A stretch of DNA of 64,000 bases from Strigamia acuminata. Lineage: Eukaryota; Arthropoda; Chilopoda; Geophilomorpha; Linotaeniidae. This document shows, piece after piece, positions 724 to 63,342 of the stretch. A program made the translations under genes and the position numbers. Every line of letters begins with the position of its first letter. The stretch's first letter is position 1. The DNA is taken from the NCBI GenBank assembly GCA_949358305.1, contig OX442318.1:854501-918500 (forward strand), given 5' to 3'. The notes beneath the pieces are model-generated. The model searched no databases. It was not told the DNA's origin and saw nothing but the letters and a program-made list of their open reading frames with translations.

Positions 724-1857
724 ATGAATGGACGCAATTCATTTCAAGCAGAAGCACTTGGCCGAACTCAACAACTGCGAAAAAGAAAGATGCAGAAAAT
801 TATTGGCAAAGTTATGACAGACCAATCAGAAACACCAGCATTCATCAAATCGCTGAAAAATATTACAAAAAAGAAAAAAATTATTTCACATCTATTTATC
901 ATCTTACTCGTTGTCAATTTGGCAATGTGTGTATACCAAACTGTAGATCGGATATTGTATTACATGGATGAACCAACAACAGTCAATGCACACTTAATTG
1001 AAACAACACATGGGCCTTTTCCATACGTTTACATCTTCCCACGAACGACCAAGGAATTTGTCGATTATGATAAAAAAATGAGCGGCAAAGATAACAGCAA
1101 AGCTTGGTGTTTGGGTATACCATACACCTTGGTCGTCAGCAATTATACTCTAACTGATATTTTAAAACACATGAATGAACCTAGTTACATAACTGATGCA
1201 CACTTTGCAATGGTACGGCTCAAATTCTCTATTTCTTCTTTTGTTTTAAAAATCAGCTAATCTTTACAGAAAAAATCAAAGACTAACCTCACGATTCAAA
1301 GTTCCAATGCACTTGTTAAGCCGACTGCTGAAGTTTCAAGTTGTAAGTCAGGAAACCGATTTATTATTTCTAAATACAGAATATTTTTCTTTAGCTTTGC
1401 AACTTCCATATGGAAATTCTAATTACAAGATGGCAATCAAATTAAAATTTCCAGGCTGCAGCAATGCTTATGTATGTTCTTATTGGTCCTAAACTTTAAC
1501 TAATAGAGAACAGTAAATGTTGCACTTGATCGTTCAATTGTCAGGTTCGATTCGAATCTGCATCAGTCAACTTTAATGAACGCCTTTCTGATGATGCAGT
1601 TTTGAAATTACCAGCAACTAGAAGTATTGGTAAAATGGAAGTAAAAAAGGTAAGGCAAACAACAAATTTTGAATATAATATTGATCTCTCGAGAGATAAC
1701 GAAAGAGATAGTATGGCACAATACAAATGGTAGATATAAAGTATTGCAGGGTTTGACCAAACCCATAATTAACCTATACCAACTGATACCGATATTGTCC
1801 TCCTAAATATGTCAAAGTGGACAGACGTCATTCGAGCACGTCACGTTAATAGAAATG

Positions 1858-2345
1858 AGCCCAAGATACTGTATGTAATGGCTTATAGCCTTTATTCAGG
1901 GTCTAGGGGTCAGAATCTCATGCTTCTCCTACTGCTAACGCTGCATTGCAGCAGCAAAGCCCTAACTGCACGCGGCACATCTGATTAGGGTTAACCGGGA
2001 GTGCCCCATGGTCAGAAAGCTGTTCATTCGGCCCATGAATCACTCACGGTATCAAGGACTGGCAGACCAGCCAAGTCCCTAAGCATCTCCATGGTAAACA
2101 AGAGTGGAGAAGAGCAGGGTGTGGACCAGAGCTGTTCCTGTGTAACTCTGGGGTCTCAACAGGATGTTGGCCCTTATATAGCCCACTCTTGCACCATGAG
2201 TACGAGTACCTTTTCCCATTGATTGTGGGATTAGTGAGCTGATGTGATGTCATATAGATTACTACTCCTCAACTGTCAACTCCACCTGGCAGGGTTGTGT
2301 TGAACTGGCCATGTGGGTCACAGTGGCCGGTATTGGTCATATTGA
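1858..2345. repeat. Diverged copy of the GC-rich LTR-like repeat family
   Basis: Lies in intron 4 of copy 1. It shares the block gcctttattcagggtctaggg with the elements at 4617-10698 and 27224-27788 (gcctttaatcattgtctaggg). Boundaries and target duplication are not clear here, so the coordinates are approximate. Confidence 0.4.
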
Positions 2346-2492
2346 TTGATACCAACACACATTTTTTTTATGCAACAGGTGCAATAAACTGAAATAAACT
2401 GTTTTATTTAAGAAATGTTTTTTTAAAAATTATTTAGCTAAGTAAATGTTCCAGATACATTTTAAATTTACATTATCAAAATGTTGGTTATA

Positions 2493-2890
2493 CCGTATTA
2501 CCTCACATTAAGTGCGAGTTATACCGGCATGCCGGTGTGAGTGAGTACAAATTTTTCTAATGAGAATTCAGCCAAAACAAGCATAAAATCCTTTTTAGAT
2601 CTTCAAAATGAAAGAAATTGCCTTAAATTTCTATAAATTTACCCACATTTTAGTAAAAATCTGCTGAAAATAAGGAAAACTTTAATTTTAGGCCCAAAAA
2701 CCAACATAATTATTTATCCGGGCTCTTTAAAGTAAAAAAAAACAAAAAGCCCAATTTTTCACTTATACCGGCATATTTCCGAGCATATGTCGCTTTATAC
2801 CGGCATGCCGGTATAAACTTTTTGCACGCAATTTTAAAAACCTGGTAAACCCATGCTCAAGGGCATGCCGCTTTATGTGAGGTAATACGG
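2493..2890. mobile_element. TA-target MITE with ccgtattacctcacat ends
   Basis: Inverted termini ccgtattacctcacat and atgtgaggtaatacgg bound about 398 bp, with TA on the left flank. It contains internal palindromes of the form taccggcatgccggta. Its right end was later hit by the hAT element starting at 2892. Confidence 0.7.
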
Positions 2891-2891
2891 T

Positions 2892-3504
2892 CAGTGTTGT
2901 ATCGAACGAGAACTAATAGTTCGCGTTCGCGAACTTAGTTCGTAGTTCGCGAACTACGAACGCGAACTAGTTCCCCGTTTTGAAAGAACTTGAAAAACGA
3001 ACAAAGTTCGTTTTTTTGACGCAAACTACGTTCTAGTTCAGTTCTAGTTCGTTCACCGGACGTTTTATGTCACAGCCAATCATTGACGATTTCTTTAATA
3101 TTAAGGGAGTGTAATTTAATTTAATAAAAGAACTTGTGATATCCTAACCTGACAACCTGTTGCGTGTTTTATTGTTTTGGCGGATTTGCAACAATAGTTT
3201 TCCATTCAATTCCCTTTGAATTTGATTCTTTCAATGATAAATTTATTAATTTAAGTGTTTGTATATTTTTTTACAGTAAATAAATGTGTTATTACAGTAT
3301 AAAATGGTGTAAATAAAAATTTGAATTCGTAAAAAAATATTTGTAAAATGAACTGAACTAGAACTGAACTAGAACTGAACTAGAACTTAGTTCACTTGGA
3401 GTTTTTGGGGGTGAACGGGAACTAGAACTAGTTCCCTAAATTGAAAACGGTGATGAACGCAAACTAGAACTAGTTCGCGATTTAGTGAACGAGATACAAC
3501 ACTG
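2892..3504. mobile_element. Non-autonomous hAT-type element, 613 bp
   Basis: Ends cagtgttgtatcgaac and gagatacaacactg are inverted repeats. It is flanked by an exact 8-bp duplication aatacggt at 2884-2891 and 3505-3512, the length produced by hAT transposases. The body is rich in gaactagaactagttc palindromes, and no transposase ORF is present. Confidence 0.85.
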
Positions 3505-3589
3505 AATACGGTGCAAACAATCCCTTATCCGAACAGCAATTTTTCGATTCTTTATTGAATTTCAATTAATTTTTAACAACTTTTATTCA

Positions 3590-3845
3590 ATTTTTAGAGT
3601 TTTTAACAATTTTTAATCAATTTTTTAACAACTTTTAACAGATTTTTAACGACTTTTAATAGATATTTAACAACTTTTCATAGATTTTTAACTATCTTTA
3701 ATATATTTTTAACAACTTTTAATATATTTTTAACAACTTTTAATAGATTTTTAACAACTTTTAATAGATATTTAACTACTTTTAATAGATTTTTAATTAC
3801 TTTTAATAGATTTTTAACTACTTTTAATAGATTTCTAACAATTTT
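3590..3845. repeat. Minisatellite, ~21-bp unit ttttaatagatttttaacaa
   Basis: About a dozen imperfect tandem copies of an AT-rich unit of about 21 bp in intron 4 of copy 1. Confidence 0.75.
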
Positions 3846-4829
3846 GAAACAATTTTTCTATATATTGTACAGATGTACGTAAAACCTAATATCCAATTAC
3901 ACGAACAAATCGGTTTTATGAACACCCATATCCCCCGATTAGTTCGGATAATCGACGCTCCACTGTAATTCTAAAAATTAGTGACTGTACAGAACCCAGC
4001 AATGTTAAATTTCTTTTCCAGTCTGTTAGTCCCATCTGTTAGCCTGTTAGTCTAGACAACTTTCTGGAACCCATCCTAAATCCAGGCTACATACATAAGC
4101 TTAAACTGATTCCTGTTCCAGAAGAATTCCATCAACTCCATTCCATCTAGCCTGCATTAATTACTGATGTTCCACAAGTGCTTGAAATCAAATATGACTT
4201 AGACTAAAATTGTCCAGTTTAAACTTAACCAAATCATGTTTCAGTATCACTTCATCAAGACGAAGAAAAATCCTTGCAATAATAACTATTATCAGGACTG
4301 TTTATATCCTTGCATCATGAAGAATTTTACTTGCAGGTACATTTGTTTTGATTAAATTATTGTAAATATAGCATAATCCAACATTCTTTCATTTGACACA
4401 ACTTTGCCGCATAAATTTGATCATTTAATAATTAGCAATTTACTCATTAAAAGCATCGGACGGTGTTACAGCAAAATTAAATACAGATACAGCTGTATAC
4501 TGGAAGATATGCATGATTACACATTAAGGATTTTCACGTGTATAGGCAATTTTGTAATTTTCAGTAAAACTAGGAGCTGTCAAAATAAAATTAAAAAATT
4601 TAATTAAATTTACAATTGTGACGGGTCATGACTCTCATAGTAATCTGGGGATTGACTACCATGAGATCGACTCTCAATGGAGACAAGGACTCCAGATTGT
4701 TGGGTTGTTGGCCTTTAATCCATTGTCTACCGTCTTCACCCGAAAATAACACCATGGTGTTGTATTCGAGTTTTGTTGAAAACTATCATTTTTGAAACAT
4801 CCCAGGTAGCACAGATGATCGAATCTACA

Positions 4830-6010
4830 TAGAATCTGTATAGACCGCTCTGTGTTGAATCTGCATAGACCTGTTGATATAGATGCGATGTTAAATCTAT
4901 GTCAATGTTCTATCCCAATTTAATTTAACATAGATTTAACATAGACTGCTCTATGCAGAATCAACAGAGAGCGATTGATGTTGAATCTGTGTAGACCGCT
5001 CTGTGTTGAATCTGCATAGGCCTGTTGATATAGATGCTATGTTAAATCTATGTCACAGTTCTATCCCAATTTAATTTTAACATAGATTTAACATAGACTG
5101 CTCTATGTTGAATCAACATAGACGGATTTATGTTGAATTAACATAGAAGGCTCTGTGTTGAATCTACGTAGACCGTTAATGTCAATGCGATGCTAAATCT
5201 ACGTCACTGTTCTATCCCAAAATAAATTTAACATAGATTTAACATAGACCGCTCTATGTTGAATCAACATAGACCGATTTATGTTGAATTAACATAGAAG
5301 GCTCTGTGTTGAATCTACGTAGACCGTTAATGTCAATGCGATGCTAAATCTACGTCACTGTTCTATCCCAAAATAAATTTAACATAGATTTAACATAGAC
5401 CGCTCTATGTTGAATCAACATAGACCGATTTATGTTGAATTAACATAGAAGGCTCTGTGTTGAATCTACGTAGACCGTTAATGTTGATGCTATGCTAAAT
5501 CTATGTGATAATTCTATCCCAATTTAATTTTAACATGGATTTAACATAGACCGCTCTATGCTGAATCAACATAGACCGATTTATGTTGAATTAACATAGA
5601 AGGCTCTGTGTTGAATCTACGTAGACCGTTAATGTTGATGCTATGCTAAATCTATGTGATAATTCTATCCCAATTTAATTTTAACATGGATTTAACATAG
5701 ACCGCTCTATGCTGAATCAACATAGACCGATTTATGTTGAATTAACATAGAAGGCTCTGTGTTGAATCTACGTAGACCGTTAATGTCGATGCTATGCTAA
5801 ATCTATGTCATAATTCTATCCCAATTTAATTTTAACATGGATTTAACATAGACCGCTCTATGCTGAATTAACAGAGAGCGATTGATGTTGAATCTGTGTA
5901 GACCGCTCCGTGTTGAATCTGTGTAGACCGTTAATGTCGATGCGATGTTAAATCTATGTCAACATTCTATCCCAAAATAAATTTAACATGAATTCAACAC
6001 TGTGTTGAAT
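4830..6010. repeat. Tandem array of aacatagac/tctatgttgaatc units
   Basis: Arm of the inner nested element. A unit of roughly 120-180 bp, built from short palindromic blocks such as gaatcaacatagac and aatctatgt, is repeated about seven times. Related blocks recur in the right arm at about 9490-10140, partly in inverted orientation, so the element could fold back on itself. Confidence 0.7.
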
Positions 6011-9000
6011 CAATAGAGACCGACGGTGACTTTGAGTTGATGTAATTGTTTATTCAAGAAATGCTCGTTTGAATTTGTATATTTTCCAGAAATGAATCAC
6101 TACAAATAAAGAAATAAAGAAATAATGTCCTACCGTCAACAATGTATACAAATCTATAAGCACGACTTCGGCGATTGTAGAGAAGAAATTTGAATGCGCT
6201 CGTGAATAAAAAATAACAATGATTTGGTAAAAAGGGCTGAAATATCAAGAGGAACGACCAAACACGATGAAATATTTATATATTACATAACGAGTTAATG
6301 TAATAACAAAAAAAAACATAAAACGATGATTTTAAAAACTTAATTTAAATTTCGGAGTAAACACAAGTCGAGGTGCTTGTTCATGTGATTTTCTTCAATC
6401 TTAAGCGAGCACACGGGCAGGGACTGGGATGAAGACCGATCGAACGATTATTATGAGAATTTCTGCATTACGAAGACACAAAGAATGCGCTAAAAGTTGG
6501 ACAATTCGAAGTTCCGACCGCACAAGGTGGGTTGTTGTTTGTATTAATTTTAATGCGTTATTTCGTGTTTTTATTGATTTTATTTGGGTTTTTTTCCTAG
6601 TTGCAGCAGTTTACCTCCGTTAAGGAGATTCTGCTCAAAACGAAAAGCGGGTGGCCGAAAGAAGTGAAGAGAGGAACGCCACAAGCGAAACGAGCCAAGG
6701 CGAGGACTGCAACGACGAGAAAGAGGAGAAATTGAGGAGAACGACTAGAACTCAACGAACAACCATTTCATCTAAACCAACGCACCAAAACGCGATATTT
6801 CTGCTTGTGGATCGAAACACTGTTGGTTGATAATGCAGACGAAACAACATCGTCGCACATTCCGACGTCCGAAAAGATTGAAACGAGCGTCGTTTGATGA
6901 TGTTACAGCATTCGACACACACACGTGGCAAAGGTTTTGAAGATTTGCATCGGCAGTGCACACAGGTTTCAATCGTTAAAATATTTATGATTGTAATTGT
7001 AATTCAATTTTTATACTTATTTTTATTTTTTTTCAAATATTTTTTTTGATTTTGCTAGGATTTTTGCAGTTAGGCCTAAATTTTAGCAACGCTTGATTAA
7101 AAATTAGGCCTAACTGCAAAAACTGACTCGTACGTCAAATACACATTCATGTCGAATCCGAATCACCACGAAAACGAATTTAAATCCGAAATCCAGCTTC
7201 GAAAGCTTCAACTTAAACGAGTTTCATCCGTTGATCAGCGTTCTCAGCGACGGAATCGTTCTCGGAGGACGGAAAGACTTTCAAAGCGGCGAATTACAAG
7301 ATTACGAAAACGGTAAAACGATAAAACAATACAACGGAACGTTTTGATTTCGATTGATTTCGATTTTCTAGGTTGTTTGGACGACGTGCGCTTCGATCGC
7401 ATTACGAAGCACCTGCCGATGCCACTGGTCCGATTATCCCGAAGTGTTCAACTTTTTGCACGTCGAGTCCGGCTGCGATCCGACGGCGTGTCTGCTGGCC
7501 AACTGACCGGACGTATACTGCAAACAACTCTTCTTAAACCACGATTGCAGGAGCAACGCGGGCTTCGTGACGGGGCTGTGCGGTAGATTTAACATAGACC
7601 GCTCTGTTGATATAATTGTTTATTCTAGAAATGCTCGTTTGAATTTTTTTCGATATAAAATTTATAGTTTTCTGTGTTTGGCGACATGGTTTTGACGTTG
7701 GATTTTGGAAAAAATAATTTAAATAAAAAATGCAAATTTTTTGTCTGATTTTTAATGTTTTATTCAGTTTTGTGAACGTAGGGACAGTGTTGTGCGCGGT
7801 ACAGCTAACGTGTACCGCGGTCCCGGCGCGCGGTACACGGCACTCCCACGTAAAGTACCGCGGTCCTGGTACAGTACTGGGACCGGGATTTGCGGTACGT
7901 CTCGCGGACCATGAGAAAACGCGAGAACACTCCAGAATCTCGTGTTTTCTCGCTTTCTCCACTTCCCATTTAAAAAAACCATAAAAAACCATTAAAAAAA
8001 CCGACTAAAAGTGAAAAATAATATTAAAAACCATAATAACACTTTTAATCAGTTTTTTTTTTATGATTCTTTACTTTTTTTTAAAATAGGAAGTGGAAAA
8101 CGCAAGAAAACACGAGATTCTCGTGTTTTCTCGTGTTTTCTCGGGGACCGCGAGATGTACCGCAAGTTCGGTCCGCGGTACACGAATTTTTAAAAGTACC
8201 GGCTTCCGGTTTGTGTGCTCTAAGCGACCGCGTGGTTAGGTTAATGGTTTTAATGGTTTTAATCAAACATCTTGTTGCTGGAATTAAACCATACAACCAT
8301 GTAAGCCATGTGTATGGAAAGTACCGGTAGGTGTTTTGATTTTTACAGGTAGATCGATCAACGATCGATACATGCCGAAGCGATGACAAAAACGCAGTGT
8401 ATAAAATTAACCTCGGAAATCGGAAAATGATAGGAAATAAACGACCCGACTGCCCGAATAACGTAATTCGAATATAAAGTAAATAAATTTCACTTATTAC
8501 GATCTTTTATGCCGACGTAAAACTAAACTAAAAATTAATACGAATTTATTTTTAACAGACGAAACGAATCAATACGAACTAGCGGACAGGTCTTTCGCGA
8601 TAAGGAGCGAACCCGCGAACAGACCACAACTCAACAATTAAACAAGGTAGTTTGACTTTACATTTTTCTTAATACTGATTAACCAAACCAAAAACACTAA
8701 TTTGTAGATGAAAAAACGCGCGTGGTCTACAGATCCATTTGCGAACCTACCGTAGTCGGATATGTGAGTTACACGTTAAAATTGATTATTTTTAGGGAAA
8801 GTTTTAATTTTTTGGGGGTTTTTATTGAATTTTTTGGGTTTATATTGAACATTTTGGGTTTACATTGAATTTTTTCATTTAAAATTGAATTTCTGAAATT
8901 AAATAAAACCTCTTGCTTAAAACGAATAAACAAAAATGACAATTTACTCTCATTCCTTTTAGTTCAATTCGACGTCCCCGATTTATCCAGTTCCACAACA

Positions 9001-9405
9001 AACAAACTAACCGAAAACGAGCGCCGAACCAAAGACAAATTCGACCGTGCAACAGTCTAACAGGTTCTAGACGTGCGCACTAGAATGATCGTCTTCAAAA
9101 TAGTTAATTCGCAATTTGAAGAAATCAACGGCTGCGTCGGCACGGGAAAAGAAGCAAACTTTCACCACGCACTCGGCAAAAACGACGAAGAATACGCAAT
9201 CAAAGTCTACAAAACCTCCATTTTGGTCTTCAACGACCGAGATCGATACGTGACCGGCGAATTTCGGCTCCGACACGATTACAACCGGAAAAACAACGGG
9301 AAAATGGTGCAAACCTGGGCCGAATAGAGATGAGAAATTTAATGAGAATGCACAACAATGGCCTCAACTCTCAAAACCGTTGTTGCTAAGAAGTCACGCG
9401 TGAAA
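9001..9405 (+). pseudogene. RIOK1: RIOK1-like kinase fragment carried by a transposon
   Basis: The reading frame around the ATG at 9073 matches the N-lobe of the atypical protein kinase RIO1: [12 protein letters not shown] (ATP-binding loop), [12 protein letters not shown] (catalytic-lobe lysine region) and [14 protein letters not shown]. The upstream in-frame part has a premature stop at about 9058, and the frame closes right after KMVQTWAE. A homologous EMRNLMR continuation lies in another frame. Only about 120 codons remain, so this is a broken fragment. It sits between the arms of the nested element at 4800-10143, as expected for gene capture. Other exon-like coding debris at about 6430-7590 in the same element was not identified. 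Confidence 0.85.
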
Positions 9406-10817
9406 AAACTCGTTCTTTTTGTAAAATATTGTTATTTTTTGAAAAATAAAATTTTTTAAAATTTTAATATTTTGTTTTTTTTATACAAAAAAAGTACATA
9501 GAACTATAAGTCGATTTTAATATCAGATCTACTTCAAATTGATGTAGAAGTCTCGATCGAATCTACGTCGATTTGAAGTAGAATCGATCTACAGCTCTAT
9601 GTCGATGCTATGTTAAAATCGCGACCGGGCGACGCTAATTCCATGTCAATGCTATGTTGTTTCGGCATAGTTTCATCCTTATTCTACGTTAAATAGACGT
9701 AGAATTTGACGTTGAGTTTGACGTAGAATTCTATGCAGAGTTTGACGTAGAATTCTATGCAGAGTTTGACGTAGAATTCTACATAGATTTAACATAAAAT
9801 AAGGATGAAACTATGCCGAAACAGCGTAGCATTGACATGGAATTAGCGCATTTTGGTCACGATTTTGACATTGAATCTACATAAAGCGGTAGATCGATTC
9901 TATGTTGAATCGACATAGAACTCTACGTAGAATTCGACGTCGATTTGACGTTGTATTGATGTAGCATCGATCTACAGCTCTATGTAGATGCTATGTCAAA
10001 ATCGTGACAGAAATGCGCTTATTCCATGTCAATGCTATGTAGTTTCGGCATAGTTTCTACCTTATTCTATGTTAAATCTATGTACCAAGATAGACGGTTT
10101 GCATAGATTCTATCTAGATTTAACATAGTTTTGTTACTTGGGATTGTTGAAAAATTCGAATATAACACCACTTCAGCTTTAACACCATGGTGTTATATTC
10201 GAATACAACACCATGGTCTTATTTTCGGGTGAAGACGGTAGGGGTCGGAGTACCCATCACTCGTGTCGGGGCCATTAGGCTCGCCACACCTACAACCGAC
10301 CCGTCATCCACAAGGCAGCTAGCCCATGAATGACGTGGTCGGTCGGCATAACTCATTCTGCTGCAGTAATACTTACCGCAGCTCATGTAGCCACTCAAGG
10401 AGGCTGCAACAGGGTCATCTCCCTGTCACTGAGCGTAACAGTGGTGAATGGGAGAAGAGCAGAGTCAACTGGGGCACTGCACTGCCCAGGCTGGCTAAGG
10501 GAACTCTCTAGCACACATCCTCACCCTGTGCTGTCCAAACTCTCTCTCTCGACTCAATGCTCCTGCTCCCACACCACTCAGCTCCCTCCTCCCCCAGTGG
10601 GTCAGCCTCACTCACTAAAGGGGGTGACCAGGAGCCAGAGAGCACTGTGTGGAGTGACGTGAGTCACCGTGGGCAACCACGGTGGCAAAACAGTCACACA
10701 ATTCTTTAGTTAAAGTAACTACAGAATTGTACATTTAATGAGTGTAACTTGCTCTGTGTGTCCACGTCATTGATTTTCTGAACAATATCTACATAAACTA
10801 ATTAAACTTAGTCTTAA

Positions 10818-11016
10818 GCTTGGTTCACACTTGCGGATATGCTGCAGAATTGTTGCATCCGGGTTTGCTACAATGAGCTGTGATTGGCTGCGGGAAAGAA
10901 ATCGCGCTGAAAAATAGAAATATTTCCTATTTTTCCGAGCGAGTTTTTTCCGCAGCCACTCACAGCTCATTTGCAGCAAACCCCGAATGCAACGTATCCG
11001 CAAGTGTGAACCAAGC
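10818..11016. mobile_element. TTAA-target MITE next to the exon 6 acceptor
   Basis: Near-palindromic 199-bp element with ends gcttggttcacacttgcgga and tccgcaagtgtgaaccaagc, flanked by TTAA (10814-10817 and 11017-11020). TTAA duplication is typical of piggyBac-like elements. A related copy lies at about 33476-33645. It ends only 12-16 bp before the exon 6 start of copy 1. Confidence 0.75.
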
Positions 11017-12177
11017 TTAACTTCTGCTTCAGATATCCATTTTACGATGCAAGAAACCTATCAGACTGCAACGACACACAACAGAGAGAACAATACTTCA
11101 TTTGGACAAATTTTAAACCTGGTCATCACATACATCAGTGTAAATGTGTCCACTTATGTGACCTAACACAACTCAGCATGTACATGGATAAAGAACCTAA
11201 TTCCGAGAATACTCTCGACATTTCAGTTCTGAATAATTACATTCGCACATTGCAAGAACAATTTTCGTACGACATTATCTCTTTACTGTGCGACATTGGC
11301 GGAAACATTGGACTCTACTTCGGAATGTCTTGTTTAACGCTCATTGAAATATTCGTTCACTGCTGCAAAATTCCAGTTTCAAAGTTCAGAATAACAACAA
11401 AAGAAAATTTAGAGTTGAAAAAAAAAATTCAAACTGTACTAGAAACAAAGAAGAAACGACCAAAAAAAAATAAACTGAAAACCATCGTGTTACTCTGCCT
11501 AATTTTCCTATCGATGTACCAAGTTTACAACAACATTCATTCTTATTTTGATTATCCACTCCTCAAATCGGTTATTCTGGTTAGAGACAAAATCATTCAT
11601 TTTCCACATGTTGTGAATTGTCGAGACACTGAAGAAATTGCAAGAGCCAAACAAGATTTATCTAACCGACTAAAAAATGATATTTATCGTTACCAGCTAT
11701 TTGATTTACTTCACCCATCATCTTCATTTGCAAACAATCCACTCAAATTATGGAACGCCACTTCAAATCTTAAATTCCTTTATAAATGTTTGAAAGTAAG
11801 TAAACAAATTGTAGTTTTTAGCTCTATAAGGTCGGGAATACAATGATACAACACGTGATTAGATTTTACAACTAATGATAACTTTATTTAAATTCAATAC
11901 ACTTAAATATCTATGTGCTTGATCCTGATGGGTCAGCACAATACGCAGGTGACGTTTTTCACCTGACGATATTGTCACGTTTAAACATAATGCAAAACAA
12001 ACATTCAATTCTAACACTAATTAAATGTAAAATGTTCTGTATTTATTCCATAATTGTGTGACAAATTTAATAACCTTCATATGTCCGTATGTTCATATGC
12101 AAATTACATGCCCTGGCGTTAATTCGAGGCAGTACGGAAGGTTTATCTCCACACAAACAATTCATTAGGCATTAGTA

Positions 12178-12477
12178 CAGGGGTTCCCAAACTTTTTAGC
12201 ATAGCGCCCCACTTTTTAAGCAAGGCGATCTTCTGCGCCCCACTTCATCTACCAGTGCATTAAAATTTTAAAAAATATACTACTAAAAAGAAAAAAAAGA
12301 AATTTTAATATAAATTTGCATAAAACTTTGTATAATTTTTTATATAATTTTGGTTAAGAATTTACAAAAGTTTCCAAAATAAGCTTGCTTTATTTAGGCA
12401 TGTATGATGGGTGCGCCCCACCAATAATCAGCTCGCGCCCCACCAGTGAGGCGCGCCTCACCGTTTGGGAAACCCTG
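12178..12477. mobile_element. hAT-type MITE, caggggttcccaaac family
   Basis: 300 bp with ends caggggttcccaaac and gtttgggaaaccctg, flanked by an exact 8-bp duplication cattagta (12170-12177 and 12478-12485). A 166-bp relative is at 57053-57218. Confidence 0.85.
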
Positions 12478-12909
12478 CATTAGTACATTATTACATGAAA
12501 TAAATACGCTGACACCATCTCTGGTTGTTCTCACAAACTTGTGCAAACTGTTACAACAATTCTTCTTTGCTGTTAAGTTGAGTATTGACAGTGTTGTGCG
12601 CGGTCCCGTTCCCGGACCGGCGATCCAGGACTGCCGGTTCGCGGTCCTGGACTGGGACCGCGTTCCTTTTGCGGCAGGTACGGACCGGGACCGCGGTACT
12701 TTTAAAATTCCGTGGACCGCGGACCGCTTTTGCGGTACATCTCGCGGTCCACAAGAAAACACGAGATTCTCTTTTTTTTTTTAGTTTTTTTTCTCATTTT
12801 CAACTGCCATCTGCCAATCTCAATCGTGAAAAAAAAAATGAATGGTATCAAATTGAAATTTTTAGTAGAAAACGCGATAAAACTACAAGATTCTCGTATT
12901 TTGCGGTAT

Positions 12910-13047
12910 AATAAAATATTCAATAAGAGCAAATATTGAGAGACCGGTCAAAATACCAAAAATTGAACCGACTTGACAGAATAATTTGACCACGGAAATT
13001 AATTGCTGTTCTTCTATTACTTCTCGGATGTTGTTCTCAATACTGTA
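12910..13047 (-). pseudogene. 138-bp captured 3' end of channel copy 2
   Basis: By eye identical over 138 bp to 16824-16961, which encodes the last 46 residues before the stop of copy 2 (from YSIENNIREVIEEQ through the second TM2, GILTGLSIFALIEYF). It lies inside a hAT-type element with its own 8-bp TSD and lacks the stop codon, so it is a transduplicated gene fragment, not an exon. Confidence 0.9.
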
Positions 13048-13159
13048 TAATCCACGAGAAAACACGAGATCTCGTATTTTCTCGTGGACCGCAAGACGTA
13101 ACGCAAAAACGCGGTCCCGGTCCTGGACCGGGACCGCGGTTCTTTTTAGCTGCCGGAAC

Positions 13160-13379
13160 CAGGGGCAGATCTAGCTTTTCGGGGGCCCGGGGCTTGAGGT
13201 TATTTCGGGGCCCCTTTTTCGAAATTTTTAATAGCAACCTTTCACTTTTTTTGTTTTTTAGCGACCTTTTTTTTTTTTTTTTTTTTTTTTTTAGTACATG
13301 GTCCTGCGTCTTGGGGGCCCCCTAAAATTTGGGGGCCCGGGGCTCAAGCCCCATTAGCCCCTATGTAGATCCGCCCCTG
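13160..13379. mobile_element. Nested hAT-type MITE, caggggcagatcta ends
   Basis: 220 bp inside the element at 12589-13413. Ends caggggcagatctag and gtagatccgcccctg, with 8-bp duplication gccggaac (13152-13159 and 13380-13387). Contains a run of T and the palindromic gggggcccgggg motif. Confidence 0.85.
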
Positions 13380-14031
13380 GCCGGAACAGTACCGTGGACC
13401 ACGCACAACACTGAGTATTGATATCAATATTAATGTAATATAATATCAATACTAATATGGACGCACTTAAGCCGAAAAATAAGCCATCCTTGATCATGGC
13501 GTCGAGAGCTCTCGGAAGCACTTATCTGATTCGAAATCCGTTCACCAGTTTCGGAGGAGATAGAGTTCGCAAACAGACTTCTCACGATTAACATAATACT
13601 CCGAAATTAATATGTTTCTATTTCTAAGTGCTTTCAGCCGTCCCTTATTTCAGCCGAGTCAACAGTCTTTGGCATCTGCACTCAGTTCAAAAAATGTAAA
13701 AATAATTACAAAACACAAGAACTATTTTCCTCTCACGGTTAAATATTTACAGTTGATATGGTGTATTCTCCAAGGAACACTTATTTAAGAGTTGTATATC
13801 CAGTATCGAAATATAAATGGAATGTGAATCAAGCAGTGAGATCTTCTGACGTTCTTACTTTTTATTCAGTTGGTTATTTTGATTGCGTTCATTTCAGAAT
13901 TTTATTCTACCGCAGAATCAACCTTTTCACCCGAAATATATTCTTTTCATTCCCAGAGTGGGTGTCATTGAAGTTGATATTTCTCGTCAAACGGTAACCA
14001 GTTTTAGTCACAAATCCCGCACGTCTTATTA

Positions 14032-14265
14032 CCGTATTTTATCGATTAAGAGCTGCGGCTCTTATTCAAAACTGCCATTTTTGTCAGCAATTACAAATTC
14101 AGTTTTTCGTTTCTTACATTTGTTTAATGTAACAAACAAAGTCTGAACGTCACGAACGAAGCATACGTTAATCATTCGTGAGATTAAATACGGAAACAAT
14201 ACGGTATTCTTGATGTCTCAGCCGCGGCTACAATTCGAGAGCGACTCTTGATCGGTAAAATACGG
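14032..14265. mobile_element. TA-target MITE, ccgtattttatcg ends
   Basis: 234 bp with inverted termini ccgtattttatcgattaaga and tcttgatcggtaaaatacgg, TA at both flanks. Located in intron 9 of copy 1. Confidence 0.75.
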
Positions 14266-14426
14266 TATGTTCATTCTTTTTAGCTTACTCGAGTAAACAC
14301 TCCAAAAGGCCCTTGCGCAGCAAATGATCAAGTTTCAGAATGTGAAAAAAGATGTTATGTAGCCAGGCTGCATCTACAGACATGGAAATGCAGGTACTGT
14401 AGGTTATGTATGTTGTTTTAGGAATA

Positions 14427-14927: not shown

Positions 14928-14996
14928 TATTACAAGCACAGTTTTCAACAAATTTGTCCTACTATTAGATTGCCATTTATGGAAAAGTGGAAACTA

Positions 14997-31572: not shown

Positions 31573-31583
31573 GATTTGGTTTA

Positions 31584-39883: not shown

Positions 39884-39933
<50 letters not shown>

Positions 39934-55137: not shown

Positions 55138-58100
55138 TCAATTGAGATGTTGAATGAGAGCAAAAATTGAGAGACCGGTCCAAATGGAAATAATTGATCC
55201 AATTTGACACAGCAATTTGACAATGCTAATTGTCTCTTCCTCTGTAATTATTTCTCGAATGTCGCTTTCAACTTTAAAATCATATAAGTAGTCATCATCA
55301 CGATTATCCTGTTTTTTTACTGAAGGTATGAATATTGTCTCTTGACAGCGTTTCGAACAGGAACAGTGTGTGTGTGGATTCGTCTTGAATAGTGTCTCCA
55401 AATACATCGTGTGAGTGAGTTTAGCGGTTTCTTGAGTCATGCAGAGTGGTAGATTACTTTTTTCCATAAATGGCAATCTAACAATACGACAGATTTTGGA
55501 CAAGTCAATGTTTTTGCGCTAAGCCTAAGCTTACCATTTCCTCCCGAATATAACAGCATACAACACCAACACATATGAAGTGCTGTTCTAATCGAATTAT
55601 TTCAAACTTCGGGGGAAAATGGTAGTATGCATAAGCTGATTGCAGGCTAACGTTCGAATCCTGTTGGGCTACAGAGAAACGCTATATCGCAAAACACTGG
55701 CTGCCCTTGTTAATCAAGTTTGAAATAAAAGAATATTTTTGTCACTCCAAAGCCAAGGGGAAATATTTAAGGGTTTACAAGTGCAGAAAGATGGCAATTG
55801 TATCTCATAACTAGCGGTACCGAATTTCTTGCATTCTAAGACATCATCTATTGTAAAACGCATATCCCGTTTTTAGAGATGTTTACATGGAAAAAAAAGA
55901 ATGTTTACTAAGCTGCTAGCCACATGTTTGACATCTCGTTCGGAATAATGTCTTCTACATTCTAAAGCTGAGTTCAAGTGCAACATTTACTTAGGCAGGG
56001 AAAAAATTGATAGAAAATAAAGAAAAGCTAACAAATAAAGGGAATTTTTAAAAATAGAAAATACAAAATAAATAAATAAATAAATAAATAAACTAATATT
56101 TTTTTTAATTGCCTTTGTTTGAATCAAAGGATTACGGTATGTCAACTAGACAATCAGTCGAAGCCAATTGAGTATACTTCAGTTGAATGGGCTGGGGGGA
56201 TAGTTGAACTGCAGACGCCAGTTATTCCCATATCTCCTGTCCACATGTCACAACTTCACAACTTTGTTTGGTGATGCTCGTTCAATTAGTGCCGATGAAT
56301 TGTCCTCAAACCACCCAGACTGCTCAGCTGTGAGTACCACGCACATTTTGTTACTTTCTTCTCTTTGTGGTGAATTCAACTCACAGATGGAAACCAATGC
56401 GTTGAGATTGAAAACATACGTACTGGCATTTGAATGGTTGCTCCTGCAGTTTGTCCGCATAACATTTGGCTTCGCACGCTGAAACTCGCTCGTTTGTTGC
56501 ACAAGGGCTTTTTGGAGTATTCACTCGAACCAACTAGAAAGAATTAATCAATGTTTCAATATCAGTCCGCTTTGTGTAAGCACACTCTACTCTGTGTAGC
56601 CCAGAAATATTGTGCAGTCTATAAACTGTCTGGACAAATTGCGTATGTCCGGACTAGAGACGTAGAGAGAGTTAAAAAAGTAATCTTCCCTACATTAAAA
56701 CAATTGGAAAATATAGGCTAAAATCAGTTTGGATGCAAGAAGCAATACAAATGAATATAAACACCAGGACAAACGCCAGATTCACAAAGGTTGAAAACCG
56801 AATTTTCCGCTGAGGGATAATGTGCACGTACGTCATGTACGTGCGCATTACGTGACGAACGTGCACATTACGTGACATATGCGCACATTAGGTAATGGTA
56901 CTTTTATGCAAATTTTGGTTTTCAACTCTTGTGAACCCGGCAATTAATTAATTAGTGTGTTTTTTATAACTTTTTTCATTATAAAATCGATACGCTATTG
57001 TTTTTTGTCCGGACTATTCAGTGAGTTTTCTCTATACAGCATTCCTGTATAGCAGGGGTTCTCAAACTTTTCAGCATCGCGCCCCATTTTTAAGCAAGGC
57101 GATAGTTTGATTGTTAAAATTTAAAAAAAAAAATTTTTTTGTGAGCGATGCGTCACCCCCACCAAAAATCAGCTCGCGCCTCTCCAGTGAGGCTCGCCTC
57201 ACCGTTTGGGAAACGCTGCTGTATAGCATTGCTGTACTCAGTAGTATGTTCTTACTAATTAATTATCATATTGTAGGAGGTCGGAAATAACGGTCAGTCA
57301 GACTGGACTTAAGACTAACAAGTGGTTTATTCTTGGTTACGAAAATACATAGGTGGCGCTGGGGGTACAGCGCCCAAAGAGAACATGGCGGTCACTACAC
57401 AAACATGCAGTGAAGCCGAACACAGCACTCACCACTCAGCATTGCTGAGTCCGGAATCTGGAACAGAGAGCTGTCTGGACTGCAAAGCAAATGGCTAACT
57501 TTTGTTTGGGACCGGGTGGGTTCCTGCCAACTAGTCCGGACGGCGCTAGGTCTGGGCTACACAGAATACATATTACTATAAACATAACCGATTGACGAGA
57601 AATATCGATAAGAATAAAATTCAAGTTGGATAGGTAGAAAATATATTTTGGGTGAAAGATTTGATTCTGGGGTAGAATGAAGCTCTGGAATAAATTAAAT
57701 TAAATTAAATTAACCCAGTGGAATGGAAATTGAAAACACAAACGATCTTACTGCTCGATCCACTTGCAATTTGGGATTGACATAAGTTTTATCATCTTCC
57801 CTCTGGAATAAATTAAATTAAATTAACCCAGTGGAATGGAAACTGAGAACACAAACGATCTCACTGCTCGACTCACTTTCCAGAATTCAGTTAAATTTGG
57901 AACCGATAAAAACGTTTTCTTTGAAATGTATGGTTCATCAACTGTAAAAATTTAGAACTGAGTGAAAAATACTAGTTGTGTTTGTAATGTTTGTAACAGA
58001 CTCGATTCAGTTTAAATTCGTTGATTGCAATGTTTATTTTGTTCCAATTGCTCCGTTACGTGCACACGTTCTACAGCATTAATTTCGTTAGTTTTCTACA

Positions 58101-61100
58101 TGACTTCGATATGTGTATCTCGACTTTACATAATGTCGTCTGCTCTTATTATTGTTACATCGAGATGCAATTGTTATATTGTTTACATGCACGGGTCACA
58201 TTATCTATTATTTATATATATTTATGTTTATCGTGTCGATCACGACAGTGTTTTGTACACATTATAAACCCAATTCTATTTTTAAAGGCTTTTATTTAAC
58301 TTGACATGACTGTGTGTTCTGAAAGGTACGGCATAGGGTGGAATCTCATACATAGCTGGAATCTGGAATCTGGAATCTCATGGAATCTGTTTGAATCTAC
58401 ATTGATTCCAATTTAACTGGCCAGGGTTTGTACGTGGAGAACTGAGTCCAACTGAATTTGCAAGTTTTTTTTATTCGAAAATACAAAATACAAAAGTGCA
58501 CTGACGAGTGAGCGGGTTTTCATCAAATTCTCAAAGGAAATAATATAAAAAGCTAAAGTAAATTGATGAAAAACTAAATTGTTGTTTTTATCTTATTCGA
58601 ATTGTTATTACATGCTCTCTCTGCTTTCCTGTTGCATGTCATCAGTTCCAATTTTCTCCCCTTTTCACATTTCCTACCGTTGTCTTACGTGTTTAATCCA
58701 AGTTTCAGCTTAAACCTGCTAACTTGGCAACTGATGACGTCATGCTTTGGATTTTGGGCAACTGGTTTTGTCGCGCGTATTGTGATTGTTGTTACATATC
58801 ATAACTATTAACTACAACAATTTAGTTTATCATCAATAAAGATGGGTTACGAATCTGAATCGCTATAGATGGTTTCCATCTTTGGAGTAGGGATTTTAGA
58901 GATCAAATCTCAGCACAGAATAAAGAATGTTCACTCCCAAGATTTTGTCAAAAGTACATTGTTAAGTTTTCACCAAGATGGCGGGACACTACACGTTTTT
59001 AACCCACTCAGTGCACTTGACCTTTAAATTTGAAGGAAAATTATTTCCAATAACTGTAATTCTCTATGAAATTCTAGAAAATTCGCATTTTTTGGTGTCT
59101 AGGAAATATTTAACGATTTATTTTTCCTATTCACCTATTTTTCCAGGTACACAGCCTTTTTTTTTTTACATTTTTTACAAGGTTTTTTTTGCAACTTATC
59201 TACCACGTTAAAACAGAATTACCGTACTGCCTCATTTAAACGCCCGGGCGTTTAATTCTTTTTTTGGGCCGACCCCCTCCCGGTAAAGTCAGTTCGGGCC
59301 CGGCGTCTAAATGAACCCGGGCGTTTAAATGAGGCAGTACGGTAGGTCTACTGTATTTGTTTCTACCTGTTTTATGCTTTCTGCAGACTCCAAATACTGT
59401 TGAAACACATGTGCTGTTGAACTACAAACAAATCTTGTAAGTGAAAAGCAATACTATACTCTTGTTCGACTCAAAAGGGTGGCCTTCTCCCATTGGCCGA
59501 GCCATATCACTGGTGTAGTGATCCAAAAATATAAAACCAAACACCAGAAATGCATTACAATGTGCAGACATTGTAATCGATTGCCTAGGTAACGGCCAAA
59601 ATTTCAAAATTAACTTATGTGCTTTCCAGACAAAGCAACCGATCAACAGAACAAACATGAGTTTTGCATTTGTATGTTTACAGAACTGAATTTCATAAAA
59701 GGAAGTAACATTTTTTAATAATAATAATCAAAGTCATATCAACTTAAATGGTAATAGCAATCACAAAACATAATAAAAATAAAAACTACTTCTCCTAAAG
59801 GTAGTAATACAGACTGGAGTTAGGAGTAATGCGGCTCGGCCAATGGGAGAAGGCCACCCTTTTGAGTCGAACAAAAGTATACAATCAATCTGCAGCATAT
59901 TGTTGTGTAACAATAGAAAAAACATGGTCAAGGGCTTTGCAAAATTAAAAAAAAGTAGACTAAAATTAAATCAGGATTTGATTTGATTTGTTATCATACA
60001 ATAAAAAAACTTTTTTGAATTTTTTGAAAAAAGTCCATTAATTTACAGAATACTCTGTTTCCTAATAAATCTGTTTATCAATATATTAATCGTAAGGAGT
60101 CTCTGTGTATGTGTTTGTGTCTGTCTGACCTCTACAAGTATCTCCTCGAAACCAGTGGACAGATTTTGGCCAAAATTTGGCCAAAATCTAAAATGACTTA
60201 TTCATGTGGTTCCCTTGTGAGTCAAAAGTCTGATCCTCTCATATATTTCCTGAGCAATTGCATCTAGGCCAACGTTGATGAAGCGATCGTAAAGGAAGTT
60301 GGGTGAGAGCAATCCAATGATGATGTCATCAATTTTGACCTTGAAAGCTATTTTTAAGGTCATTCACTCGCTAACTTCTAAACCAATCGGGTTAGAGCAA
60401 AAAGGTCAATTACAAAGTTGTAGAGCACTATCAAATTAGTACTATCCAACAACTTATCTTAGGCATCTTAAGTTAAATGTTTTCATTTTAAAATGAAAAC
60501 AAATTAGCTGAAATAAAGCCTGCCATTGTGGCAAAAATTAAATTTCTACGGCAAAAGTACTGAATTTCTCAAATAAATGTATTTAAATGTGCATTATCAT
60601 GCAAGTCCACAAGAAAAATCACTACCGTTTTTTAATGCCTCAATAATTTTTTTTTCACAAGAATAAAAAATTCCATTTTGCTGATTTTTTTCTGATTTGT
60701 TTCCTTTTTAAAAAGAAAACATTTAACTTAAGATGACTAAGATAAGTTGGATAGTACTAATTTGATGGTGCTCTATAACTTTGTAATTGACTTTTTTGCT
60801 CTAACTCGATTGGTTTAGAAGTTAACGAGTGAATGATCTTGAAAATGGCCTTCAAGGACAAATTTGATGATATCATTGGATTTCTCTCACCCAACTTCCT
60901 ATACGATCGCTTCATCAAAGTTGGCCTAGATGCCATTGCTCAGGAAATATTTGAGGGAGTCAGACTTTTGACTCACCCTGTTTTTTTTTCGCTAATACTA
61001 CCAAAACGACAACATATTTCACCCTTACGCACCGAAGGGTTTAATTGCACGAAATGCTATACATTTTGGAATGCATTAATTGGGCAAATTTAAAAATATT

Positions 61101-63342
61101 TTAAAAATATATTTTTGAACCAAATGGGCTGTTTGAATTTATACTTTCAGATCTCGGGATCTCGGGATCTCGGTCTCGGCAATCTCGGGCTTTTTTTTTT
61201 GGGAAATCTCGGTCTCGTTAAACCGAGATTTCGTCCCGAGATATGTACGAGATACGTACAAAAGTTCAAAACCAATTTTGAACGGGCCAAAACGGTTTTG
61301 ATTGGTTTTGAACGGGCCAAAACGGTTTTGATTGGTTTTGAACGGGCCAAAACGGCATTGTTACGTTTTTAGCACTATTTTCGCCCGCATTTGTTCCATC
61401 TATTGCGGCCGAAGCTCGGCTGCAGTTGTACGATCAAATGCAGCCGATTTTCGCCCGCATTTGTTCCATCTAATGCGGCCGAAGCTCGGCTGCAGTTGTA
61501 CGATCAAATGCAGCCGATTTTCGGCCGCATTTGTTCCATCTAATGCGGCCGAAGCTCGGCTGCAGTTGTACGATCAAATGCAGCCAATTTTCGCCCGCAT
61601 TTGTTCCATCTAATGCGGCCGAAGCTCGGCTGCAGTTGTACGATCAAATGCAGCCGATTTTCGCCCGCTTTTGTTCCATCTAATGCGGCCGAAGCTCGAC
61701 TGCAATTGTACGATCAAATGCAGCCGATTTTCGGCCGCATTTGTTCCATCTAATGCGGCCGAAGCTCGGCTGCAATTGTACGATCAAAAAAGATTAAAAT
61801 CGTGGTAAAAACAATAAAATATAAACAAAACCGTGCTAAAAAATATCAAAAAAAATTTAAAACGTCCTAAGAAATGTCGAAAATTGATTAAAATCGCGTA
61901 AAAATGTGTTTTTGATCAATTTTGAACTTTTTCGATAAAATCTCGTTTTTGATCTCGGTCTCGTACGAGATCTCGTCTCGGGACGAGTGCATCTCGTCTC
62001 GGAAATACGAGATTTTGAAATGACCGAGAATCTGAAAGTATAGTTTGAATTACAATTGACATGTTAAGGTGTCCACAGGAGAATCACAAGAATGAGTTCA
62101 AAACCAGGAAAAATATATTGCACGTCATGAAACATACGGATAAAATATATTTGATTTCCAAATTTCACTTACATTGGCTGCTAAAATATTACACTCTGCG
62201 GCGGCTTTCCATAATTTGAGTGGATCGTTTGCGAATTTAGTTGACGGATGAAGTAAGTCAAAGAGCTGGAAACGACGAGCATCCATTTTCTGTCGTTCAA
62301 CAAAATCCTCTTTAGCTTTTAATATTTCCTGAGTTTCTGTACAAATGATGACGAGTGGATGATGAATTATTTTGTCTCTGACGAGAGTCATCGTTTTGAC
62401 GAGTGGATAATCAAAGTAAGAATTAATTGAAATGTAAATTTGGTGAATGGAGATAAAAATTAGAAATAGCAGCACGACATTTTTCAATTTATTTTTTTTG
62501 TCGGGCGTTTTCTGCTTTTCTTTTAGTATTTCTTGAATTTTATCTCGCAACTGGCGATCTTTGCTTTTCCTTTTTTTGTACACAATTAGAAGCATTTTGC
62601 AGCAGTGAACAAATATTTCAACGAGCATTAAACATGACATTCCAAAATATAGTCCGATGTTTCCGCCAATGTCGCATAGTAAAGTGATTATGTCGTAAGA
62701 ATGTCGTTCTTGCAATGTCCGAACGTAATTATTCACAGCAAAGACTTCGATAATAGTATCATTATTCTCAGAATGAGGTGATTGATAACGGTTCATGCTG
62801 AGCTGTGTCACTTTACATACACCAAGACATTTGCACCTGTAGTAAGCATTAGCCCACACGTCTTGTTGTTTTCTTAGATAAGTGTTATTGCATTCTGGTA
62901 GGTTTCGTGCATCATGAAACGGATATCTGAAATCGAAATTAGTGTTCCTTTAGTGTGTTGAGTAACTATTGTGATCAAAGAAGTTAATGAACAACACACG
63001 GCTTTAGTATTTGTGAGTCTCGAGCGAACGTTTGTTTGTTAAACTAAATAGACTGCCTTATTCTTTTTACAACCTGGGTTATACACCCAGATAACCCCTA
63101 GTCGTCGTACCGACGTAATATGTGGACGAGGGCGAGACGTGGAGCTGAGTGAAAGGTCCTTAGTTGGCCGTCCCGAGGCTCACAGTATTATTAATTACAA
63201 CGTTTAAATAAACAGCCTATCTGGATATTGTTTGATTAGAACTAAAATTATACCTGCAAGTCATAACTCTCATGACACAATGCAGCAAACATCCTTGTAA
63301 ATTGTCATCGCAAGGATTTCGCTTAGTGTTGATGAAGTGATA
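55138..63342 (-). CDS. DEG/ENaC-type channel, two fused units (copy 5), 5' end outside window
   Basis: Visible exons 5' to 3': 63254-63342 (exon 5), 62173-62926 (6), 59367-59421 (7), 57865-57941 (8), 57589-57684 (9), 56424-56533 (10), 55138-55477 (11); all join in frame. Exons 1-4 with the first TM1 lie beyond 64000. Exon 6 encodes YPFHDARNLPECNNTY, Cys-rich CKCLGVCKV, TM2 with CDIGGNIGLYFGMS, a Lys-rich linker, the second TM1 and SYFDYP, then HPLVIIC where the other copies have FP. Exon 7 is the shortest of the set and its core is GVCRKHKT, diverged from GICTQFKK. Exon 11 ends with IWTGLSIFALIQHLN. Introns 6-9 are expanded by transposons. A possible duplicated exon lies between exons 8 and 9. 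Exon 9's donor (gttatg) is atypical. Probably functional, but the missing 5' part prevents a firm call. Confidence 0.85.
57053..57218. mobile_element. hAT-type MITE, caggggttctcaaac family, 166 bp
   Basis: Ends caggggttctcaaac and gtttgggaaacgctg, with 8-bp duplication ctgtatag at 57045-57052 and 57219-57226. Shorter relative of 12178-12477. Confidence 0.85.
57752..57802 (-). other. Possible 51-nt cassette exon in copy 5
   Basis: A local tandem duplication (about 57683-57756 and 57800-57869) copied the exon 9 acceptor and the exon 8 donor. Between the copied sites lies an open 51-nt segment, phase 0 at both ends, coding for a 17-residue peptide ending YVNPKLQVDRA, parallel to exon 8's end KVSRA. 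Both sites are canonical (ccag, gtaaga). Confidence 0.35.
59222..59342. mobile_element. 121-bp TA-target MITE
   Basis: Ends ccgtactgcctcatttaaac and gtttaaatgaggcagtacgg, flanked by TA. It ends 24 bp from the exon 7 donor of copy 5. Related sequence occurs at about 80-160. Confidence 0.85.
59457..59879. mobile_element. TACTC-family MITE, 423 bp
   Basis: Inverted ends tactcttgttcgactcaaaa and ttttgagtcgaacaaaagta, TA at 59455-59456 and 59880-59881. Contains ggccgagccatatcactggt, shared with the element inside exon 11 of copy 1. Confidence 0.85.
60217..60977. repeat. Imperfect inverted repeat, arms about 270 bp
   Basis: gtgagtcaaaagtctgatcc at the left and its relative gtcagacttttgactcac at the right. 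The arms match over much of 60217-60490 and 60710-60977. The right arm keeps a reading frame starting MAFKDKFDDIIGFLSPNF. No target duplication identified; probably an old foldback element. Confidence 0.65.
61140..62042. mobile_element. 903-bp element with 9-bp target duplication
   Basis: Termini tatactttcagat and atctgaaagtata are inverted, followed by ctcggg/gagatctcg palindromic blocks. Flanked by gtttgaatt at 61131-61139 and 62043-62051. The interior holds a 30-bp repeat (61262-61355) and a 70-bp minisatellite (61381-61790). Confidence 0.8.
61381..61790. repeat. 70-bp minisatellite inside the 903-bp element
   Basis: Six copies at an exact 70-bp spacing, each beginning tcgcccgcatttgttccatc or tcggccgcat and containing gaagctcggctgca. 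Confidence 0.95.

Follow-up and report, generated by a model that had tools for sequence, protein, structure and literature searches.

The closest described relatives of the genes reported here come from another centipede, Scolopendra subspinipes mutilans. BRTNaC1 (broad-range thermal receptor 1; PDB 8ymw) is the best solved relative of both units discussed below, and has been termed trimeric (PMC12804983). PDPNaC1 (PDB 9jf7), described as a homotrimer, matches the first of these units and is reported to have neither an HG motif nor a knuckle domain (PMC12714832). Both are short chains (431 and 421 aa, respectively) with one unit each, in contrast to the two described here, and each of the two PDB entries contains three chains. 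The expanded pickpocket (PPK) families of arthropods, so far as is known, also consist of single-unit subunits. Chemoreceptor roles have been shown or suggested for these expansions (PMC7738191), and Drosophila has 31 PPKs (PMC12304301). Chains with more than one unit have been made in the laboratory: two ASIC1a subunits engineered into one chain through an 8-residue linker give functional channels (PMC4529235), as do ASIC concatemers of at least two subunits per chain (PMC4529235, PMC10329638), whereas the chains described here are encoded by a natural gene family.

The window, a 64,000-nt stretch of the Strigamia acuminata genome, contains five paralogues (g1 to g5). The spliced models encode chains of 724-793 aa with the layout TM1-ectodomain-TM2-linker-TM1-ectodomain-TM2 (TM2a and TM1b denote the first TM2 and the second TM1, TM2b the second TM2). 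At the DNA level they are natural tandem concatemers belonging to the DEG/ENaC family, with two complete myriapod-type subunits per chain; four TM segments and two ectodomains are joined by a basic linker that is coded within a single exon. The features are as follows.

724..15520, + strand: g1, two-unit DEG/ENaC gene; 724 aa model, exon 4 not found, last exon interrupted at 14987-15204
11033..11795, + strand: g1 exon 6; ectodomain 1 end, TM2a, linker, TM1b and ectodomain 2 start in a single open frame
16821..21683, - strand: g2, two-unit gene; start ATG at 21683, 793 aa, 11 exons, intron phases 0,1,0,0,2,0,1,0,0,2
17953..18754, - strand: g2 exon 6 (TM2a-linker-TM1b)
24613..28410, + strand: g3, same gene type, frameshifted; exon 6 frame disrupted ahead of TM2a
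45602..50102, - strand: g4, the clearest two-unit gene; 783 aa in 11 exons
50102-49632, 49574-49502, 49439-49360, 49302-49150, 49089-49001, 48621-47868, 46558-46465, 46417-46332, 46266-46171, 46115-46006, 45947-45602, - strand: g4 exons
49887..49955, - strand: g4 TM1 of unit 1 (hydropathy)
48303..48392, - strand: g4 TM2 of unit 1, filter CDIGGNIGLYFGMS (motif and alignment; hydropathy below the threshold used)
48189..48302, - strand: g4 basic linker between units, predicted cytosolic
48120..48188, - strand: g4 TM1 of unit 2
47868..48621, - strand: g4 exon 6, used as a query against the genome
45605..45691, - strand: g4 TM2 of unit 2, filter CQIGSIVGLFTGLS; stop 9 residues past the filter
55138..63342, - strand: g5, two-unit gene; exons 5-11 in the window, exon 4 not found
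62173..62926, - strand: g5 exon 6 (TM2a-linker-TM1b)

The original prediction placed a two-unit chain in all five paralogues. This holds for g1, g2, g4 and g5. In g3 a stop directly follows position 26114, in ectodomain 1, and TM2a-linker-TM1b is open in another frame (26054-27157); the present g3 sequence therefore does not code for an entire chain. Of the protein lengths given earlier, 781 and 793 residues, the latter is that of g2, and the g4 model has 783. The interruption in the last exon of the g1 model spans 218 bases and has weak splice sites. Exons 1-3 of g5 lie past the right end of the window and were located in the adjacent stretch (L049). The tRNA and Rfam scans gave no matches.

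Scored singly against the Pfam ASC model (PF00858; cut-off 23.6 bits), units 1 and 2 of g4 reach 47.9 and 51.4 bits, and two stretches each pass the cut-off in g1, g2, g4 and the portion of g5 inside the window. By hydropathy, a pair of TM helices flanks a large ectodomain twice per chain, with not all four peaks above threshold in every model (TM2a of g4 and TM1b of L040, for example, are below it). DIGG-type glycines are present, and the G-x-S filter occurs in both units of all 13 models, confirming the earlier descriptions of the first and second TM2. The unit 1 filter is CDIGGNIGLYFGMS; TM2b is of a GS type that ends in TGLS, with GS in place of GG and with loss of both the DIGG aspartate and the second glycine. 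Outside the 13 models, one locus (L016) has E instead of G in its unit 1 filter. PDPNaC1 differs in having G-A-S where the present family has G-M-S or G-L-S. The same 8-cysteine thumb ladder is found in both units and is kept in no fewer than 10 of the 11 models compared. Script-based estimates over the 13 models put ectodomain 1 at 240-306 residues and ectodomain 2 at 279-304; the short ectodomains predicted earlier are thus present, but they are not peculiar to the two-unit family, those of BRTNaC1 and PDPNaC1 being short as well (PMC12714832). The HG motif before TM1 is absent from both units in 13/13 models, some of which begin a few residues late; as PDPNaC1 also lacks it, HG is not defining for the myriapod branch. 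The unit 1 profile recovers BRTNaC1 (E 3.3e-13) and PDPNaC1 (E 7.3e-13), with FaNaC1 the next family (8.7e-5), and the unit 2 profile recovers BRTNaC1 (E 1.5e-15), followed by ASIC5 (0.047), with PDPNaC1 not recovered at E <= 0.1. Both units are accordingly closer to the BRTNaC1/PDPNaC1 type than to ASIC, FaNaC or PPK; what departs from the one unit per chain of the DEG/ENaC family is the presence of two.

TM2a, the linker and TM1b all lie inside one uninterrupted exon (exon 6), and this segment is open in all five window copies. Three protein-query searches of the genome together yielded 171 exon-6 loci, a count that excludes 8 further candidate sites identified by a TM2 motif. With exon 6 of g4 as the query, all 150 scored matches cover the first TM2 through the second TM1 and 148 are stop-free; with the two other exon-6 queries, 137/144 and 141/146 matches are stop-free. 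One of the 171 loci (C1:52253692) begins past TM2a. As controls, eight ordinary DEG/ENaC loci (L001-L008, the best ASC loci of the genome) all end 17-29 residues past the filter. Six of 19 modelled genes are missing a complete chain, namely the frameshifted g3 and five (L043, L044, L047, L051, and L053) judged within the 10 kb fetched per locus; some of the incomplete loci may be dead genes. Among the other models, exon 6 of L039 and L046 can be modelled only with gaps (40 and 48 bases), and L048 has a single stop at an exon edge. A search of g4 against 5.8 billion protein sequences returned 3391 candidates, none at E <= 0.01, and ordinary DEG/ENaC proteins were likewise absent from the results, so this outcome is no evidence on how widely the family is distributed. 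Viral contigs searched with a three-protein alignment gave 355 pattern matches and no relatives.

The intron phases of g2 and g4 are 0,1,0,0,2 in unit 1 and again 0,1,0,0,2 in unit 2, a repeat also present in L040, L045, L048 and L050; such repeated phases are a mark of internal duplication. At the corresponding position ahead of the last exon, three of the eight single-unit controls (L003, L004, and L006) have an AG|A signal compatible with a phase-2 acceptor. Units 1 and 2 of g4 match each other by BLASTP (E 7e-14) and their profiles align with an hhalign probability of 98%, so their likeness is not due to chance. In a tree of 13 genes, units 1 form one group (99/98) and units 2 a separate group (100/100), which fits one fusion preceding the expansion. 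The fused form very probably had a single origin, judging from these sequence comparisons. Two neighboring single-subunit genes would have fused once, when the last exon of the first gene lost its stop and ran on into the first exon of the second, and the fused gene would then have expanded to considerably more than 150 loci in S. acuminata. The single-unit gene L004 groups with unit 1 at weak support (84/78), and the fusion partners may therefore have come from different subfamilies.

The fused two-unit protein is very probably the real product, as far as sequence can indicate. This reading, which was also that of the original prediction, is supported by the single open exon 6, the 171 loci, the matched intron phases and purifying selection. 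Whole-chain dN/dS is 0.39-0.48 (six pairs among g1, g2, g4, and g5). The earlier counter-case, two ordinary subunits from separate transcripts, here extended to cleavage of the linker, is very unlikely. With 148/150 exon-6 matches free of stops, a unit 1 transcript ending after the first TM2 would be stopless, and overlapping separate genes were rejected because exon 6 has no stop. A start within exon 6 is harder to discount: among 42 distinct genes, counted from 11 residues past the filter, 32 contain a methionine in the interval from the TM2a end to TM1b and 10 contain none, so that a separate start of unit 2 is possible on sequence. Against it, besides the 10 methionine-free linkers, the linker (~30-40 residues) keeps its length and charge across genes, and its dN/dS over ~35 codons is 0.45-0.97, with five of six pairs at or below 0.62. 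Its net charge of +4 to +14 (42 genes) is consistent with a position on the cytosolic side. AlphaFold models built for four exon 6 sequences by themselves (mean pLDDT 36, pTM 0.25) were too poor to use, with helices at the expected TM2a, linker and TM1b positions. An assembly or gene-prediction artefact has a negligible probability, given that the assembly is based on HiFi reads with QV 59.6 (PMC10556566) and that the identical exon type recurs at 171 loci; a fusion located within one exon could not have been created by any prediction step.

The stoichiometry question raised with the original prediction, two units per chain in a trimeric family, is real. Two-pore-domain K+ channels and two-pore channels are natural two-pore-unit fusions in which two units fit a fourfold pore, whereas the DEG/ENaC pore is threefold and two is not a divisor of three. 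In the natural channel fusions known to us, unit multiplication always fits pore symmetry. The design is kept in >150 copies and the copies tested are under purifying selection; therefore some assembly must occur. We tentatively favor a 2+1 arrangement, at somewhat less than even odds, in which a single three-unit pore would hold both units of one chain side by side and be completed by a unit from a different DEG/ENaC chain, perhaps one of the ordinary single-unit subunits. The near-invariant pore helix would come from unit 1, and unit 2 would form a second, faster-changing wall. An unlikely, though not negligible, arrangement is one in which three chains form a homotrimeric unit 1 pore and a homotrimeric unit 2 pore, tied together or linked into a sheet. 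It would leave no unit over and would match the homotrimeric PDPNaC1 and BRTNaC1, which is called trimeric; the separate grouping of units 1 and 2 and their strongly different TM2 segments are what might be expected if each unit packs with its own kind. On geometric reasoning only, however, linkers of ~30-40 residues spanning two pores would be strained in at least one of the three chains. The difference between the TM2 segments could also mean that unit 1 alone forms the trimeric pore and unit 2 is a lateral regulatory or sensory module. TM2a is conserved far beyond TM2b (pairwise identity 0.83 versus 0.61 in 11 genes, each ectodomain being at 0.45; dN/dS 0.06-0.14 versus 0.14-0.48 over six pairs), and unit 2 lacks the aspartate of DIGG as well as the second glycine. 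Yet unit 2 keeps its filter in every model, and purifying selection on ectodomain 2 (0.43-0.60) is similar to that on ectodomain 1 (0.33-0.57), making such a module improbable. Two chains would divide evenly into a four-unit pore like that of two-pore-domain potassium channels, and it has been argued that ASIC1a has a tetrameric form at the surface (PMC4529235); since the closest relatives with structures are trimers, with three chains per entry, such a pore is highly improbable. Non-canonical assembly as a whole, comprising paired unit 1 and unit 2 trimers or a four-unit pore from two chains, is doubtful. By analogy with their relatives, the chains are probably sensory cation channels, likely chemo- or proton-sensing. 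To the complete proposal, a concatemer arising by a single fusion and acting as a sensory cation channel with a 2+1 pore, we assign a probability of about 0.5.

In line with the original prediction, which knew of none, no natural two-unit DEG/ENaC member was found described in searches of the accessible literature, subscription journals being mostly outside reach. Nor was a description found of this large receptor-like family of centipedes, which exceeds in number the 31 PPKs of Drosophila; the main text of the Strigamia maritima genome paper contains none of six terms tried for channels of this kind. The nearest solved members of the family are trimers; here two units are fused, and this layout has been retained in >150 copies. 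It offers a natural test case for DEG/ENaC subunit order and stoichiometry, which have so far been probed by engineered concatemers. If assembly is non-canonical, these chains would be, to our knowledge, the first known natural case of two units per chain in a channel family with threefold pores and would represent a new quaternary design, and one of the largest receptor repertoires of the centipede lineage would be made from natural channel concatemers.

The original prediction held that all five DEG/ENaC paralogues of the window join two complete channel units, each a TM1-ectodomain-TM2, in one polypeptide. The architecture is borne out: four window proteins contain two stretches of the ASC family (PF00858) by Pfam, and exon 6, which spans the first TM2 (TM2a), the linker and the second TM1 (TM1b), is open without a stop after TM2a. 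The clean models are g2 and g4 (11 exons, GT-AG introns); of the five copies, g3 is an exception, being frame-broken in exon 6. The gene models were built with our own small splice-aware aligner after an all-open-frame comparison across the five regions. Features of the window are as follows.

724-15520, forward strand: g1, chain of 724 residues without exon 4; interruption in last exon doubtful
21683-16821, reverse strand: g2, chain of 793 residues counted from the ATG at 21683
24613-28410, forward strand: g3, frame break in exon 6 (25984-26731), within ectodomain 1 and upstream of TM2a
50102-45602, reverse strand: g4, chain of 783 residues
63342-55138, reverse strand: g5, extending past the window edge, remainder supplied by an adjacent stretch (L049)
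50484-51687, beside g4: large, near-perfect palindrome whose arms (411 and 330 bases) are 99% complementary
32800-33231, reverse strand: exons of a class I/II aminotransferase-fold enzyme (Pfam)
39521-39856, forward strand: exons of a UDPGP-family enzyme (Pfam)
4840-5989, 40483-41131, 41656-42814, 61307-61858 and others: numerous tandem arrays, with repeat units between 11 and 151 bases long

The palindrome holds repeated CCTGAC/GTCAGG units. The two enzymes are presumably serine palmitoyltransferase subunit 1 and UDP-N-acetylglucosamine pyrophosphorylase, respectively; Pfam gave no match for four of the six window frames searched. The last exon of g1 carries a 218-base interruption (14987-15204) with weak splice signals that is absent from g2, g3, g4, and g5 and is either a new intron or an insertion.

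Both halves of g4 exceed the ASC family cut-off when scored alone, and they match each other by BLASTP (E 7e-14, query residues 30-394). Unit 1 and unit 2 of one gene share 20% to 24% identity, and the same unit shares 45% to 62% between different window genes; a comparison of the two unit profiles gives 98% probability. Eight thumb cysteines recur as one ladder in both units (g4 residues 270-328 and 643-715), a pattern shared by at least 10 of 11 models.

Exon 6 encodes, in order, the end of ectodomain 1, TM2a, a basic linker, TM1b, and the start of ectodomain 2, with neither an intron nor a stop at the junction. The TM2a motif fits 42 of 44 loci read, all 42 of which stay open for at least 156 residues beyond the G-x-S filter; reading also continues past the filter in the other two (L016 and L033). 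By comparison, all eight of the best ordinary ASC loci of the same genome end 17 to 29 residues after it. Two genes were read twice, leaving 42 distinct genes, in which the linker has a net charge of +4 to +14. Since only 10 of these have no methionine from the end of TM2a up to TM1b, a separate start of unit 2 within exon 6 is possible in the other 32. At the DNA level, the two units lie in one reading frame per gene.

The 237.5-Mb assembly contains many such genes. Among the 150 matches scored with g4 exon 6, the best of 1437 candidates, all span TM2a to TM1b and 148 lack a stop; two further exon 6 queries gave at least 144 matches (seven with a stop) and at least 146 (five with a stop). The union comprises at least 171 loci (77 on C6, which bears the window at C6:854501-918500, 63 on C1, 23 on C8, and 8 elsewhere), counts that are lower bounds because scoring was limited to the best candidates. 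At one of them, C1:52253692, the match begins only behind TM2a. Six are on small contigs (C30, C68, C76, and C95), where they may represent second versions of loci placed on other contigs. The pattern CDIGGNIG occurs at 139 genome sites (reversed control, 0). Nine of 100 listed sites fall outside the union; one adjoins C1:52253692, and the remaining eight include g3 and seven that count as unit 1 TM2 sites only. Groups with identical scores in the searches listing them (C1:52.77/52.78 Mb; C1:54.14/54.20 Mb; C6:1.77/1.78/1.80 Mb; C95:63 kb with C1:58.35 Mb; C68:76 kb with C6:0.94 Mb) may be very recent duplicates, and the members on C95 and C68 may instead be haplotype copies left unplaced. Other DEG/ENaC genes abound as well, with at least 93 ASC exon matches scored as the best of 2094 candidates (C1, C3, C4, C8, C9, and C11). 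These are often clustered (e.g., C4:7358317-7376957), and all eight read are single-unit.

Nineteen genes were modelled, the five of the window and fourteen fetched loci, ten of which make up the low-scoring end of a sample spaced evenly along the g4 exon 6 match list and four of which were hand-picked. Thirteen models reach from the first to the last TM (g1, g2, g4, g5, L039, L040, L041, L042, L045, L046, L048, L050, and L052), four with an irregularity (g1, L039, L046, and L048). L043, L044, L047, L051, and L053 are incomplete inside 10 kb, and some adjoin transposon-like sequence. The exon 6 match of L039 contains a stop, and both L039 and L046 were modelled with a gap in a part of exon 6 similar to that of the g3 break.

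Among the six pairs of g1, g2, g4, and g5, dN/dS is 0.39 to 0.48 over the whole chain, 0.06 to 0.14 in TM2a versus 0.14 to 0.48 in the second TM2 (TM2b), and 0.45 to 0.97 in the linker (about 35 codons), values that are rough because dS is high (0.68 to 1.01 over whole chains). Pairwise identity among 11 genes is 83% in TM2a, 61% in TM2b, and 45% in both ectodomains. The most guarded pore helix is that of unit 1.

In g2 and g4, the intron phases of unit 1 (0,1,0,0,2) are repeated in unit 2, and the identical ten phases were computed for L040, L045, L048, and L050. L042 and L052 agree except that exon 4 is absent, as it is in g1, which has one extra phase; the models of L039, L041, and L046 contain extra pieces, those of L041 being two, tiny and in the variable exon 4 region. 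An AG|A signal fitting a phase-2 acceptor occupies the equivalent position ahead of the last exon in three of eight single-unit controls (L003, L004, and L006), while in the other five the motif used is missing or located elsewhere. Given the repeated phases and this acceptor position, exon 6 is best explained as the last exon of one ancestral gene that became continuous with the first exon of another. In a tree built from the last-exon region (13 two-unit genes and ten single-unit sequences; bootstrap not fully settled), unit 1 and unit 2 each form one group with high support, which fits a single fusion after which the fused gene multiplied. The single-unit genes L003 (C9:11.55 Mb) and L004 (C5:5.19 Mb) have a TM2, CD[IV]GGNLGLYLGLS, that resembles unit 1, making them candidate third-subunit partners or relatives of the fusion ancestor.

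No natural two-unit DEG/ENaC member was found in the literature searched, which was covered in part, so that one may be described elsewhere; the main text of the S. maritima genome paper mentions none of six related terms. Engineered ASIC concatemers are functional with linkers of 8 residues (PMC4529235) and 19 residues (PMC10329638), so the natural linker has the length needed to join adjacent positions of a single pore. We favour an assembly in which two units of one chain would be joined by a third unit from another chain (probability about 0.4). Ranked below it, twin pores are unlikely, one idle unit in each chain is more doubtful still, and a four-unit pore is highly improbable.

The best solved-structure match of both unit profiles is the short centipede channel BRTNaC1 (431 residues), and the unit 1 profile also matches PDPNaC1 (421 residues); ASIC, FaNaC, and PPK26 match far more weakly, and a single-sequence search with whole g4 finds ASIC1 at 3.7e-5. 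PDPNaC1 is a homotrimer of antennal neurons. It lacks the HG motif and the knuckle (PMC12714832), and the HG motif before TM1 is likewise absent from both units in all 13 models. From their DEG/ENaC family membership and these relatives, the two-unit chains are probably sensory cation channels.
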